A DNA stretch of 64,000 nucleotides from Streptacidiphilus melanogenes (GTDB taxonomy: Bacteria; Actinomycetota; Actinomycetes; Streptomycetales; Streptomycetaceae): assembly GCF_000787835.1 (NCBI RefSeq), contig NZ_BBPP01000027.1, forward strand, positions 39,094 through 103,093, in the 5' to 3' direction. Below the pieces are notes generated by a model. It had not been told where the DNA came from. It saw nothing but the letters and a program-made list of their open reading frames with translations, and did no database searches. Made by a program: the position numbers and the translations under genes. The number at the start of each line of letters is the position of its first letter. Position 1 is the first letter of the stretch. Shown piece by piece: positions 9,165-62,948 of this stretch.

Positions 9165-10709
9165 TCAGCCGTTGTACTGCGTGAGGATCTTCGTGAAGTC
9201 GTAGGGGTTCTGCGTCACGCTGGAGCAGGCCCCGTCGGCCCAGTAGTGCACGACGCTCGGGTCGCAGGCGCGGTCGCGGTTGACGTCCCAGTAGGAGAAC
9301 GCGGCGGCGTGGTTGGCCTGGAGGTAGCCGAGCAGGTCGGTGAAGGTCGACTGCGTGTAGAGCTCGCTGGGCTGGTCGGTGTGACCGTTCATCAGCTGCA
9401 CCGACAGGTGTGCCCACGCGGTCGCGGCGCTCCAGCCGTACAGCGTCTGCAGCTGCTGGACGGTGTCGGCGGCGACGGTCTCCGCGGCGGCGGTCTGGGT
9501 GCCGCTGGTGAGGCCGAAGTCGAAGTCCATCAGGTTGACCCGGTCGATCCGGGCGCCGTCGTTGACGGCCTGCTGGATCTCGTCCCGCCCGGTGAGCGGG
9601 AGGCCGACGGTGGTTGCCGGAATGGTCAGCGTGACGCTCAGGTTAGGGTTCGCGGCCTCCAACTGCTTGATGGCGCCCCAGCGGACGGCCATGTTGGAGT
9701 CGAGCGCGGTGTTCTCCCAGTCGAGGTCGATCCGCTTCAGGTTGTACTTGGTGACGACCTGCTGGTAGGCGGCGGCCAGGGCGGAGCTGCTGCCGCAGGA
9801 CGAGCCGAGCTCGGTCCCGTTGTAGCCGCCGAAGGAGACGGCGACGTCGCCGCCGGCGGCCCGGATCGCGCTGATGTCGGCGGCCACGGCGGTGTCGGAC
9901 GAGACGGGCGTGCTCGCGTTGCCGCCCCAGGCGGGCGTGCAGCCACCGGAGTCGAGCACGAACGCGAGGTTGAACTGGTTCTCGCCGGAGCCGGAGAGGA
10001 TGTCGGAGATCGCCTGCGGCGAGTTGTCCAACGGCATGAAGTAGACCGGGTGGTGGAATCCCGTGTCGACGGGCGGCGGGGTGGTCCCGGTGCTGCTCGG
10101 GCTGGGGGTCGGGCTGGCGCTCGCACTCGCGCTGGGGCTGACGCTGGGGCTGGTGGAGGCGCTCGCGCTGGGCGAGGGGGTTCCGCCGCCGCTCGGCGCG
10201 GGGCCGGTCAGCGACAACTGATCGGCGCCGAAGGTGCCCTGGCCGTACCAGCCGTGGACCCACACCGTCACCGAGCTGGTGTTCGCGCCGGTGGTGAAGG
10301 TGGTCGACAGGGTGCTCCAACTACTCGCGCCCGGCGTCCAGGTGCTGGTGTCGGTGGTCCCGGTGCCGGTGTCGCCGAGGTAGACGTAGTTCCCCTCGAC
10401 CTGGCCGGACAGGGTGTACGTCGAGTTGGGGACGACGGCCACGGTCTGCGAGCACTGCGCGTCGTCCTGCCCCGCGGGCGTCCCGGAAAGGGCGTAACTC
10501 CCGGCGGCGACAGGGCTGCTGACCACCTTGTCGTTGGCGCTGCAGCTCCACCCGCTCAGATCGCCGGTCTCGAACCCGCCGTTCGCCACCAACTGCCCGC
10601 TCGCTGCCTGCGCGGCCCCGCCGACCAACGCCAGCCCACCGACCCCGAGCAGCCCGGCGGTACACGCCGCAAGCACGGCCTTGACTCGTATGGGACGTCT
10701 GTCTTCCAT
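9165..10709 (-). CDS. Secreted GH18 chitinase-type glycosidase with CBM
   Basis: A 514-aa secreted protein. A signal peptide (hydrophobic core VLAACTAGLLGVGGLALVGG, cleavage near AQAAS) is followed by a carbohydrate-binding module (VANGGFETGDLSGW) closely similar to that of the neighbouring chitinase. A Ser/Pro linker then leads to a catalytic domain. The GH18 signature is RIDLDWEN, preceded by the SFGG motif (AVSFGGYNG); the Glu is the expected acid. This catalytic domain differs from the neighbouring chitinase but is clearly related to the one at 28160-29647. A DasR-like operator lies 44 bases upstream of the start, so GlcNAc control is likely. The Met at 10709 is the first with a plausible signal peptide. 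Confidence 0.93.
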   Translation of the reverse strand: MEDRRPIRVKAVLAACTAGLLGVGGLALVGGAAQAASGQLVANGGFETGDLSGWSCSANDKVVSSPVAAGSYALSGTPAGQDDAQCSQTVAVVPNSTYTLSGQVEGNYVYLGDTGTGTTDTSTWTPGASSWSTLSTTFTTGANTSSVTVWVHGWYGQGTFGADQLSLTGPAPSGGGTPSPSASASTSPSVSPSASASASPTPSPSSTGTTPPPVDTGFHHPVYFMPLDNSPQAISDILSGSGENQFNLAFVLDSGGCTPAWGGNASTPVSSDTAVAADISAIRAAGGDVAVSFGGYNGTELGSSCGSSSALAAAYQQVVTKYNLKRIDLDWENTALDSNMAVRWGAIKQLEAANPNLSVTLTIPATTVGLPLTGRDEIQQAVNDGARIDRVNLMDFDFGLTSGTQTAAAETVAADTVQQLQTLYGWSAATAWAHLSVQLMNGHTDQPSELYTQSTFTDLLGYLQANHAAAFSYWDVNRDRACDPSVVHYWADGACSSVTQNPYDFTKILTQYNG

Positions 10710-55228: not shown

Positions 55229-56680
55229 TCAGCCCGAGATGATCGGAAAGGTCCCGGTCTCGCTCGCGCCGCTGCTCGGGGCCTGGCCGGTGCCCGCCGC
55301 GATCGCCGCGTCGCGGACCGCCGCGGCGACGGTCTTGGCCACGTCGGCGTGGAAGACGGACGGGATGATGTAGTTCGCGTTGCGCTCCTCCGCGCCCACC
55401 GTCGCCGCCAGCGCACGGGCCGCGGCCAGCATCATCTCGGTGTTGACGGTGCGGCTCTGCGCGTCCAGCAGGCCGCGGAAGACGCCGGGGAAGACCAGCA
55501 CGTTGTTGATCTGGTTCGGGAAGTCGCTGCGGCCGGTCGCGACGACGGCGGCGGTCTGCCGGGCGACGGCCGGGTCGACCTCCGGGTCCGGGTTGGCCAG
55601 CGCGAAGACGATGGCGTCGTCGGCCATGGCGGCGATGTCCTCGCCGTCGAGCACGTTCGGCGCGGAGACGCCGATGAAGACGTCGGCCCCGCGCACGGCC
55701 TCCTTGAGCGAGCCGGTCCGGTTGCTGCGGTTGGTGTTCTCGGCGATCCAGCGCAGCGAGTCGTTGAGGTCGTCGCGGCCGAGGTGGACCACGCCGCGCA
55801 CGTCCGCGACGGTGGCGTGGCGGATGCCGGCCGCCATCAGCAGCTTGAGGATCGCGGTGCCGGCCGCGCCCGCGCCGGACATCACCACGCGGACGTCGCC
55901 GATGTGCTTGCCAACCACCTCCAGCGCGTTCATCAGCGCGGCCAGGACGACGATGGCGGTGCCGTGCTGGTCGTCGTGGAAGACGGGGATGTCGAGGGCC
56001 TCGCGCAGGCGGGCTTCGATCTCGAAGCAGCGCGGCGCCGAGATGTCCTCCAGGTTGATCCCCGCGAAGCCGGGGGCGATGGCCTTGACGATGGCGACGA
56101 TCTCGTCGCTGTCCTGGGTGTCCAGGCAGATCGGCCAGGCGTCGATGCCGGCGAAGCGCTTGAACAGGGCCGCTTTGCCCTCCATGACCGGCAGCGCGGC
56201 CTTGGGGCCGATGTTGCCGAGCCCGAGCACGGCGGAGCCGTCGGTGACGACGGCGACGCTGTTGCGCTTGATGGTGAGGCGGCGGGCGTCGTCGGGGTTC
56301 TCCGCGATGGCCATGCAGACCCGGGCGACACCGGGGGTGTAGATCATCGACAGGTCGTCGCGGTTGCGGATCGGCAGCTTCGAGGACATCTCGATCTTGC
56401 CGCCGAGGTGCATCAGGAAGGTCCGGTCGGACACCTTGCCGATGGTGATGCCCTCGATCGTGCGCAGCTTCTCGACGATCTCCTCGGCGTGCGCGACGGA
56501 GGTGGCGGCGATGGTGACGTCGATGCGCAGCGACTCCAGGCCGGAAGCGGTGACGTCGAGGCCGGTCACCGTGCCGCCGGAGGACTCCACCGAGGTGGTG
56601 ATCTGGCTCACCGCGTTGCCACGGGCCGGGACCTCCAGCCGCACCGTGATCGAGTTGGAGACACTGGGAACCGCCGTCAT
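55229..56680 (-). CDS. Malic enzyme (malate dehydrogenase, oxaloacetate-decarboxylating) with ACT domain
   Basis: The 483-aa enzyme converts malate to pyruvate and CO2 with NAD(P)+ reduction. An N-terminal ACT domain (about 8-80) precedes the catalytic part. The latter has SMIYTPGVARVCMAI with the conserved Tyr, KAALPVMEGKAALFKRFAGIDAWP with the Lys, metal ligands in FHDDQHGTAIV, and GAGAAGTAILKLL for NAD(P). FALANPDPEVDP is a late family motif. AGAAGG precedes ATG 56680 by 9 bases. The ACT domain suggests allosteric control by a small molecule. Confidence 0.95.
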   Translation of the reverse strand: MTAVPSVSNSITVRLEVPARGNAVSQITTSVESSGGTVTGLDVTASGLESLRIDVTIAATSVAHAEEIVEKLRTIEGITIGKVSDRTFLMHLGGKIEMSSKLPIRNRDDLSMIYTPGVARVCMAIAENPDDARRLTIKRNSVAVVTDGSAVLGLGNIGPKAALPVMEGKAALFKRFAGIDAWPICLDTQDSDEIVAIVKAIAPGFAGINLEDISAPRCFEIEARLREALDIPVFHDDQHGTAIVVLAALMNALEVVGKHIGDVRVVMSGAGAAGTAILKLLMAAGIRHATVADVRGVVHLGRDDLNDSLRWIAENTNRSNRTGSLKEAVRGADVFIGVSAPNVLDGEDIAAMADDAIVFALANPDPEVDPAVARQTAAVVATGRSDFPNQINNVLVFPGVFRGLLDAQSRTVNTEMMLAAARALAATVGAEERNANYIIPSVFHADVAKTVAAAVRDAAIAAGTGQAPSSGASETGTFPIISG

Positions 56681-56790: not shown

Positions 56791-56816
56791 GGAATGCGTT
56801 CCAGGAGGCGTTTGTT
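56791..56816 (+). promoter_or_regulatory. Candidate sigma-R promoter for a small RNA
   Basis: GGAAT (56791-56795, itself preceded by GG) is followed by exactly 18 bases and GTT (56814-56816). This is the sigma-R consensus GGAAT-N18-GTT of Streptomyces. Transcription would start near 56822-56828, the first base of the structured region. No protein-coding gene lies downstream on the plus strand. Confidence 0.6.
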
Positions 56817-56825
56817 ACTCTGGCT

Positions 56826-56972
56826 GTGCGACACCGGCTCGATCCAAGCCCCCGGGCCCAACCTTCGTCCCTCAGAGGGACCACTTGCCGCGAGGCGAGC
56901 ATGGCGGGTCGGTGTCGCACTGAACGGAACATCAGAAGGGGCTCCCCACCGCACCGGTGGGGAGCCCCTTCT
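56826..56972 (+). ncRNA. Candidate structured small RNA ending in a strong terminator
   Basis: A closing stem of 11 bp (GTGCGACACCG at 56826-56836 with CGGTGTCGCAC at 56910-56920) encloses at least two hairpins: GTCCCT/AGGGAC with a CAG loop (56867-56881), and CTTGCC/GGCGAG with a GCGA (GNRA) loop (56884-56899). Thirteen bases later an 18-bp perfect hairpin (56934-56951 with 56955-56972) ends the unit, which would also stop helR transcripts from the other side. A sigma-R-like promoter precedes it. The GNRA loop on this strand supports plus-strand transcription. The ~147-base transcript is inferred, not known. Confidence 0.5.
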
Positions 56973-56995
56973 GCATGATTGCCCGTCAGACGGTG

Positions 56996-59338
56996 TCAGC
57001 CGTGCAGCAGCGCCGGGACGCCCGCCGCGTCCGGCAGGTCCAGCGGACCGCTGAGGACGGTGAGCCGCTGCGTCGCACGGGTCAGCGCCACGTACAGGAC
57101 CCGCAGGCCGGCCTCCGACTCCCCCGCGATCCCGGACGGGTCGGCGACGACCGTGGCGTCGTACTCCAGGCCCTTGGCCTCCAGGCTGCCGAGCGCGACC
57201 GCGCGCTCGCCCAGACCCGTGATCCAGGCCCGCGCCTCCTCGCGCCGGTCCATCGGCACGACGATGCCGACGGTGCCCTCGACCTCGTCCAGCAGCCGCC
57301 GCACCTCCGCGCGGGCGGCGTCGCCGAGCCCGTCCTCGACCGCGACCGCGGCGAAGCGCGGCTGCACGCCCGTGGAGCGCACCGCGACCGGCGGCTCCGT
57401 CCCGGGGGCGGCCTGCGCCAGGATGCGCGAGGCGACGTCGGCGATCTCCGCCGGGTTGCGGTAGTTGGTGGTCAGCGTGAACCGGCGGCGCGGCTTCCCG
57501 GCCAGCGTCTCGTCCATCGCGGCCTGCGCCTCGGCCGGGTCGATCCACGAGGACTGCGCCGGGTCGCCGACGATGGTCCAGGTCGCGTTGCGGGCTCGGC
57601 GGCCGACCATGCGCCACTGCATGGGCGTCAGGTCCTGCGCCTCGTCCACGATGACGTGCGCGTAGTCGCGGCGCTCGGCGGCCGCGGCGGCGCGCTGCTC
57701 CTGCTCGCGGCGCTGTCGGTCCCCGTAGACGGTGACCTCGTCCAGGCCGGTCAGCAGGTCCGTCGGGTCCACCTCGCGCACCCGCGGCCGATAGGGCTCG
57801 CCCAGCAGCGTGTTCAGCTCGTCCAGCAGCGCCACGTCGGCGACGGAGACGCCGCCGCGACCCTGCCGGTCCAGGTGCTTCCAGGAGTCGGAGAGCAGCC
57901 GCAGCTCGGCGCGGCTGAAGGCGCCGCGGGCGAGGCCGCCCAGCCGCCGCTGGTCGGCGAGGACGGCGAGCACCCGGCGCGGAGTGACCGCGGGCCACCA
58001 GGCGTCCAGGAAGTCGAGGAAGGCGTCCTCGTCAGCCACGTACTCGTCGAAGCTCTCGCGCTGCCGCTGGAGCTCCTCGCGTTCGTAGCGGTCGGCGGGC
58101 GCCGGGCGGCCGCGCAGCAATCGCGTCCACAGCGCGTCCAGAAGCGACCGCCGGGCGCGCGGGCGCAGCAGGTTGACAGGGGTGGTGCCGCCGAGGACGG
58201 TGCGGCGCAGGTTGCGCAGCGCGTCCGCGTCCAGCCGCAGCACCTCGCCCTGGGCCACGACGCGCAGCCCGGACGGGGTGTCCGGGCCGTCGAGGCCGGC
58301 CCGGGCGGCGCGGCGCAGCAGCGGCAGCATCCGCGAGGAGCCCTTGATCCGGGCCGTCTCGGGGGTGTCGTAGCGGTCGGCGTCCTCGCCGTCGAGCAGG
58401 CCGCCGATGGCGCGGATGGCGACCTGGCCCTCCTCGCCCAGCGCCGGCAGCACGCCCTCGGTGTAGGAGACGAGCAGCGGGGTCGGGCTGACCACGAGGA
58501 TGCCGCCCGCGTAGCGGCGGCGGTCGTGGTAGAGCAGGTAGGCGGCGCGGTGCAGGGCCACGGCCGTCTTGCCGGTACCGGGACCGCCGGTGACCAGGGT
58601 CGCCCCGGCGGCCTGGGCGCGGATGACCTCGTCCTGTTCCTGCTGGATGGAGGAGACGATGTCGCGCATGGAGTGCCCGCGGGCCCGGCCGAGCGTCGCC
58701 ATCAGCGCGCCGTCGCCGACGACGGCGAGGGGCTGCCCGTCGATACGCGGCTCCAGGTCGGGGCGGAGCAGGTCGTCCTCGACGCCCAGCACCTTGCGGC
58801 CGCGCGAGCGGATGACGCGGCGGCGCACGACCCGTCCCGGCTGGCGCGGAGTGGCCCGGTAGAACGGCGCGGCGGCCGGCGCGCGCCAGTCGATGACCAG
58901 GGGCCCGTACTCGGCGTCGAGCACCCCCATCCGGCCGACGTGCAGGGTCTCCGCGATGTTCGGATCCGCCGGGTCGAGCGGGGTCTGCGAGGGGAAGCCG
59001 TCCTCCTCCGGACGGTCCGGCTGCTGCAAGTCGATCCGCCCGAAGAGGAAGTCCTCGAACTCGTTCGTCAGCCGCTGGAGGTGCCGTCCGGCCTGGTAGA
59101 CCTGCGCGTCGCGCTCGGCCAGCGCGCCCGGCGTGCCGGCCATGAACTTGCGGTTGGCGTCGTCGAGCAGGAACTCCGCCTCGGCGAGCTTCTCGCCGAG
59201 GCGCCGGTAGACCGTGTCGAGGTGCGCCTGCTCCACCGCGATCTCCCTGGCGAGCAGGGTCGCGTGGTCGGTCGGCGTCGGGTCGGCTCTGTGGTCGCTC
59301 GACTGGGACTCGGCGGTCGGGCGGGTGGGCGAGGCCAA
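56996..59338 (-). CDS. helR: HelD-family RNA polymerase recycling ATPase
   Basis: The 780-aa SF1 helicase-like motor has an N-terminal coiled-coil arm (~25-95, AHLDTVYRRLGEKLAEAEFLLDDANRK), a conserved IDWRAPAAAPFYR segment, Walker A GGPGTGKTAVALH, motif II VDEAQDLTPMQWRMVGRRA, and later TTNYRNPAEIADV and ALTRATQRL. HelD proteins bind RNA polymerase, and the HelR branch frees polymerase from rifamycin; ATG-less start TTG 59338 has GAGGGGAACCC directly upstream. The rifamycin-associated element described for helR promoters is not apparent. The operator-like inverted repeat at 59372-59393 overlaps the probable transcription start. Confidence 0.9.
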   Translation of the reverse strand: MASPTRPTAESQSSDHRADPTPTDHATLLAREIAVEQAHLDTVYRRLGEKLAEAEFLLDDANRKFMAGTPGALAERDAQVYQAGRHLQRLTNEFEDFLFGRIDLQQPDRPEEDGFPSQTPLDPADPNIAETLHVGRMGVLDAEYGPLVIDWRAPAAAPFYRATPRQPGRVVRRRVIRSRGRKVLGVEDDLLRPDLEPRIDGQPLAVVGDGALMATLGRARGHSMRDIVSSIQQEQDEVIRAQAAGATLVTGGPGTGKTAVALHRAAYLLYHDRRRYAGGILVVSPTPLLVSYTEGVLPALGEEGQVAIRAIGGLLDGEDADRYDTPETARIKGSSRMLPLLRRAARAGLDGPDTPSGLRVVAQGEVLRLDADALRNLRRTVLGGTTPVNLLRPRARRSLLDALWTRLLRGRPAPADRYEREELQRQRESFDEYVADEDAFLDFLDAWWPAVTPRRVLAVLADQRRLGGLARGAFSRAELRLLSDSWKHLDRQGRGGVSVADVALLDELNTLLGEPYRPRVREVDPTDLLTGLDEVTVYGDRQRREQEQRAAAAAERRDYAHVIVDEAQDLTPMQWRMVGRRARNATWTIVGDPAQSSWIDPAEAQAAMDETLAGKPRRRFTLTTNYRNPAEIADVASRILAQAAPGTEPPVAVRSTGVQPRFAAVAVEDGLGDAARAEVRRLLDEVEGTVGIVVPMDRREEARAWITGLGERAVALGSLEAKGLEYDATVVADPSGIAGESEAGLRVLYVALTRATQRLTVLSGPLDLPDAAGVPALLHG

Positions 59339-62543: not shown

Positions 62544-62580
62544 CCTACACATGGGTCGCATCTTTTGGTGATGCGTGGTG

Positions 62581-62948
62581 TGGAGGTGGCGGGAATCGAA
62601 CCCGCGTCCTGTGGTGCGGAACCAGAGCTTCTCCGAGCGCAGTCTGCTGTGATTTTCTCGGCCCCGGCAGTCACGCAGACAAGCTGTCCGACGGGCTCAG
62701 TCACTGTTGGATTTTCCGCACGACCCCGTGACCGGGTCGGACGGTGGAGTCCCCTAGATTATGCCAGGATCCGGGACGGGGACGCGCCCGGTCTGACACC
62801 TTCGGTACTCGCTCAGGCGGCGAGCGCGAAGGACTCGCGCTTAGAGTTGGCGATTATTTTTTTGCGGCCCGTGGTTAACGAGATCATTGCCGCGTTCCTC
62901 GGCTCGCTTCCTCTGCCTCGACATCCCCAGTCGAAACCGATCACCCCC
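62581..62948 (-). ncRNA. ssrA: tmRNA
   Basis: This 368-nt RNA rescues stalled ribosomes with SmpB. The 5' end GGGGGTGA and the 3' end CACCTCCA form the tRNA-Ala-like acceptor stem; the T-arm GGGTTCGATTCCCG is complete and CCA is not encoded. The resume frame reads ANSKRESFALAA and stops at 62813-62815, giving a tag ending in the protease signal ALAA. smpB lies upstream on the same strand. Confidence 0.93.

Follow-up and report, generated by a model that had tools for sequence, protein, structure and literature searches.

The window analysed here is a stretch of 64,000 nt (64 kb) from Streptacidiphilus melanogenes. Within it, a putative small RNA gene lies on the plus strand between a malic enzyme gene, from which it diverges, and a helD gene, with which it converges. 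The malic enzyme gene is of the SCO2951 type, its function being assigned by position and by the name used in the literature. The right-hand neighbour had been called helR in the first-pass annotation; by position it is instead a class II HelD gene of the SCO2952 type, the rifamycin-resistance HelR of the literature (SVEN_6029 of S. venezuelae) being another paralogue. A tmRNA gene is found approximately 3 kb beyond the helD gene (62578-62948, minus strand). The features of the locus are as follows.

55229-56680, minus strand: malic enzyme gene, divergent neighbour
56791-56795, plus strand: GGAAT, -35 element of SigR/SigH type
56814-56816, plus strand: GTT, -10 element, 18 nt past GGAAT
56816-56821, plus strand: TACTCT, an overlapping TAnnnT and possible housekeeping -10
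56826 (+/-2 nt), plus strand: predicted transcription start, first base of P1, placed from the distance to GTT and the start of P1
56826-56841, plus strand: closing helix P1, 5' arm, predicted to pair with 56905-56920
56842-56863, plus strand: C-rich junction strand AUCCAAGCCCCCGGGCCCAACC, 22 nt
56867-56881, plus strand: hairpin P3 (stem 56867-56872 / 56876-56881)
56884-56899, plus strand: hairpin P4, with GNRA tetraloop (GCGA) at 56890-56893
56905-56920, plus strand: closing helix P1, 3' arm
56934-56972, plus strand: 18-bp hairpin, presumed bidirectional terminator for the RNA and helD
56996-59338, minus strand: HelD class II gene, convergent neighbour

Predicted folding energies are -111 kcal/mol for the region 56791-56990 (z -6.8) and -52.8 kcal/mol (z -4.65) for the RNA body, which spans 56826-56920 and begins about 10 nt after the GTT; no shuffled sequence was equally stable in either case. 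The predicted shape consists of a long closing helix and two main hairpins, one of them capped by a GNRA loop, so that the multibranch fold with a GNRA loop proposed from the first reading is borne out. The junction strand is mostly unpaired in this fold. Its core, CCCCGG, is retained across the class Actinomycetes, and the P4 loop reads GNGA in almost every class member. The downstream hairpin (arms 56934-56951 and 56955-56972, 3-nt loop) had been described as an 18-bp terminator. The hairpin itself is present, and 133 of 148 family members have one with at least 12 matched pairs in its arms downstream of the RNA, compared with none in shuffled tails; however, it lacks a T-run, and a simple terminator scan of the window calls no terminator there. 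Contrary to the initial statement that no ORF is present, open frames do cross the region. Single-nucleotide indels in the invariant core, together with the compensatory changes described below, nevertheless argue against a coding role.

A 196-base query recovered the RNA from 149 of 150 Streptomycetaceae genomes, covering 16 of 17 genera. The body is almost frozen across 129 distinct family sequences while the flanks diverge, nearly all columns of the junction strand being invariant. A covariance model built from the Streptomycetaceae alignment matched 165 of 297 genomes of the class Actinomycetes, and a second model, retrained on 101 diverse sequences, matched 181 of the 297 (68 of 115 genera). 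No match came from the sampled genomes outside the class. Named hosts identified by a pattern scan include Mycobacterium, Mycolicibacterium, Nocardia, Gordonia, Williamsia, Rhodococcus, Arthrobacter, Microbacterium and Nocardioides, as well as Cellulomonas, Georgenia, Geodermatophilus, Modestobacter, Kocuria, Rothia and others. Several class genomes carry 2 or 3 copies, and no plasmid copies were found. One locus (L199:4001-4290) contains a tandem pair 184 nt apart, each member preceded by GGAA-N18-GTT. Members of one sub-family, in which P3 is far longer (L366:1026-1156, minus strand; L367:956-1089, plus strand; L368:1033-1164, minus strand), occur in family f37 and as a second copy in one Streptomycetaceae genome (L366), where GGAAC-N18-GTT lies directly upstream.

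The first-pass annotation had proposed a covariance search in related sequences, and had held that a lack of compensatory base changes would speak against the RNA. Such changes are present. In alignments of 80 and 62 class sequences, compensatory changes affect every one of the 12 modelled pairs of P1 and 94 percent of cells pair, although these counts lean towards the model structure because the class alignments were fitted to it. The covariation score is 0.448, compared with 0.131 for shuffled and at most 0.09 for slid alignments. A free MAFFT alignment of the Streptomycetaceae family also contains compensatory changes, in P1 and P3. Beyond its covarying pairs P3 is near-fixed in sequence across the class, as is P4, paired bases included. 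The top mutual-information pairs of the class alignment are the predicted ones; a pseudoknot or additional tertiary pairing was considered and rejected, as mutual information returned essentially the predicted pairs alone.

The RNA sits between the malic enzyme and helD genes in 139 of 149 Streptomycetaceae loci. Relative to these genes it is inverted in 39 of the 149, mostly in genus g9. The inversion takes in the RNA, its promoter and its terminator (for example in loci L019-L025, L027, L030 and L031) and apparently arose more than once. Outside the Streptomycetaceae, BLASTP found neither malic enzyme nor helD beside the RNA. The neighbours there vary, and include hydantoinase, AIR-synthase-like, kgd-type, ApbE, DUF349 and nitroreductase genes, among others; with such unrelated genes adjoining the RNA, a conserved neighbour was rejected as a guide to function, and no neighbour hints at a target common to the family. 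The suggestion that the RNA acts on malic enzyme or on the gene then named helR finds no support in these observations. Because the orientation inverts, the flanks diverge and a hairpin of its own follows, the Streptomycetaceae RNA looks autonomous, and on sequence evidence it has a promoter and terminator independent of its neighbours, as would be expected of a trans-encoded RNA.

Two further kinds of neighbour were observed. In many Micrococcales and Propionibacteriales, a conserved family of approximately 200-residue proteins with LPGALWRLYxLREWV and AAAFCRVVA motifs is encoded directly upstream of the RNA (L189:4179-4778, minus strand; L217:2028-2687, minus strand; L232:3360-3992, plus strand; L241:3316-3906, plus strand); searches with representatives found nothing in Pfam or NCBIfam. 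In two deep lineages, small proteins with weak matches to sigma-factor region 4 adjoin the RNA (L193:2925-3281, minus strand; L185:4123-4536, plus strand).

The RNA is very probably scr2952 of S. coelicolor, an identification made by position and name. SCO2952 is a HelD gene (PMC8655204), and an SCO2952-type helD adjoins the RNA both here and in the 139 loci above; the naming rule, by which an scr RNA takes the number of the adjacent SCO gene, was inferred from scr4677. The RNA scr2952 (Vockenhuber et al. 2011) is Northern-confirmed, and one of five such RNAs conserved in most (more than half) of the Streptomyces tested (PMC8388888). The texts consulted ascribe to scr2952 neither a function nor an Rfam entry nor a link to SigR, and do not describe its class-wide spread, covariation-supported structure or SigR/SigH-type promoter. 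They likewise contain no matching report of a relative dependent on SigH or SigR. Both the structured family, as one that spans the class, and the conservation of its ECF promoter appear to be new.

No Rfam 15 family, including 6C, 6S, tmRNA and SRP, overlaps the RNA at or above its gathering score. Permissive thresholds were also tried, and returned chance matches only, nearly all of them on the terminator hairpin. Like the actinobacterial 6C RNA, the RNA is small and has a C-rich sequence proposed to be exposed; in contrast, it consists of a junction closed by one long helix with a GNRA hairpin. The sigma-E-dependent RNAs of enterobacteria are small RNAs under the control of a stress sigma factor, and resemble the present RNA in being small, intergenic and linked to an alternative stress sigma factor, but differ in structure and taxa, whereas the RNA described here is conserved at class level. 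Most of these actinobacteria are not known to have an Hfq. Ms1 and the 6S-like scr3559 are also structured actinobacterial small RNAs, yet the window RNA is much shorter and has no Rfam match to such families, and they are described separately (PMC9130861, PMC8539372). In M. tuberculosis, ncRv13596A is predicted to be SigH-linked (PMC4109619); the mycobacterial neighbourhoods viewed by eye revealed no obvious link between it and the RNA.

Upstream of the RNA body, GGAAT is followed after exactly 18 nt by GTT, precisely as first reported, in agreement with the SigR/SigH-type (ECF thiol-stress) pattern of GGAA(T/C) with 18-19 nt to GTT. Taken singly, such a match is weak evidence, since the window contains 2 copies (the other at 9619-9644, plus strand) against 0.23 expected. 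It becomes strong at this locus because the motif is conserved. Among 147 Streptomycetaceae loci, GGAA lies 18 or 19 nt before GTT in 96 (79 at 18 and 17 at 19); the remaining spacings between 14 and 22 gave none. In other families GGAAN-N18/19-GTT was found in 62 of 141 loci, compared with a mean of 0.55 and a maximum of 3 in shuffles that permuted single bases rather than dinucleotides; 52 of these sequences have the spacing of 18 and 10 that of 19, with at most 5 at every other spacing. Carriers include named mycobacteria, Nocardia, Gordonia, Williamsia, Rhodococcus, Georgenia, Microbacterium and Nocardioides, and among the Mycobacteriales loci listed nearly every one has the motif. GGAAT-N18-GTT also precedes the sigR-rsrA operon of the S. 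melanogenes genome, which was located via RsrA. In mycobacteria GGAAY-N18-GTT cannot tell SigH from SigE.

Comparative evidence supports the existence of the gene, the fold of its RNA, its independence of the neighbours and a conserved ECF-type promoter. We favour, with a probability of roughly 0.78, a stand-alone gene encoding a compact, trans-acting small RNA some 150 nt long, transcribed from a SigR/SigH-type promoter and belonging to a structured family of the class Actinomycetes. Transcription would start at approximately 56826 and end at the 56934-56972 hairpin. Disulfide stress would raise the level of the RNA through SigR, and the RNA would then act in trans, its fold being recognised by one conserved partner, either a protein or a ribonucleoprotein. 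Recognition by a single partner is suggested by how little P3, P4 and the C-rich junction strand vary in sequence. That the family belongs to the core of the SigR/SigH response to disulfide stress throughout the Actinomycetes, mycobacteria included, with one partner reading these three elements, is a more tentative proposal, to which we would give somewhat less than even odds.

An antisense small RNA would share the same promoter story and differ in the last step only: the C-rich strand (CCCCGGGYYCCAAC) would pair with stress-related mRNAs at their G-rich ribosome-binding regions. This strand is C-rich, predicted to be largely single-stranded and conserved more strongly than any other part of the RNA, all of which would suit pairing with mRNAs. 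However, P3 and P4 are just as invariant in their paired bases, which antisense action would not require. We consider antisense pairing possible, if rather doubtful, and recognition by a conserved partner slightly more likely.

A different reading concerns the promoter, as the -10 region also reads TACTCT and a housekeeping component is therefore possible. The RNA could be a constitutive structured RNA under HrdB/SigA control through the TAnnnT -10, with GGAAT an accessory or lineage-specific addition. In the Streptomycetaceae a TAnnnT overlapping the -10 is all but universal, GTTAnnnT being present at 147 of 149 examined loci, and the GGAA element is missing from several lineages. In one large Streptomyces clade (g14), none of the 37 loci has it; most carry a TTG-type -35 followed by GTTACATT, with TACATT as the -10, which suggests a switch to housekeeping control in this clade. 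Genera g2, g3 and g4 likewise lack GGAA, as do, at the 18/19 spacing, 79 of the 141 loci outside the Streptomycetaceae. Most of the named negatives belong to the Micrococcales and Propionibacteriales, several with TTGACA-like or TAnnnT elements. SigR control is thus not universal, and in the lineages devoid of GGAA expression would be of the housekeeping type. Against a constitutive role for the family stand the sharp 18/19-nt spacing between GGAA and GTT across unrelated spacers in many families, the presence of GTTG rather than TAnnnT in several Mycobacteriales, and the occurrence of the same motif before sigR itself; we regard it as unlikely. Of the sigma-R-dependent small RNA first proposed, a structured, independently transcribed RNA with a SigR-type promoter is strongly supported on comparative grounds, with the qualification that the -35 element is absent from the g14 clade. 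Finally, a cis element or a 5' or 3' UTR of malic enzyme or helD, which the location between both genes in most Streptomycetaceae might suggest, is highly improbable, since the RNA is reversed in orientation between the two in 39 loci, since in the window it diverges from one gene while converging on the other, and since BLASTP found neither beside it outside the family.

Few actinobacterial small RNAs have known functions. The stand-alone, SigR/SigH-linked RNA favoured here would give the SigR/SigH response an RNA arm open to direct testing, in antibiotic producers as well as mycobacteria, and the covariance models allow existing transcriptomes to be reread. If the more tentative proposal is true, thiol-stress control would be exerted by an RNA through one conserved partner, a mode that has not been described before. 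The recurrence of both fold and promoter throughout a bacterial class suggests an overlooked, ancient part of its thiol-stress response.
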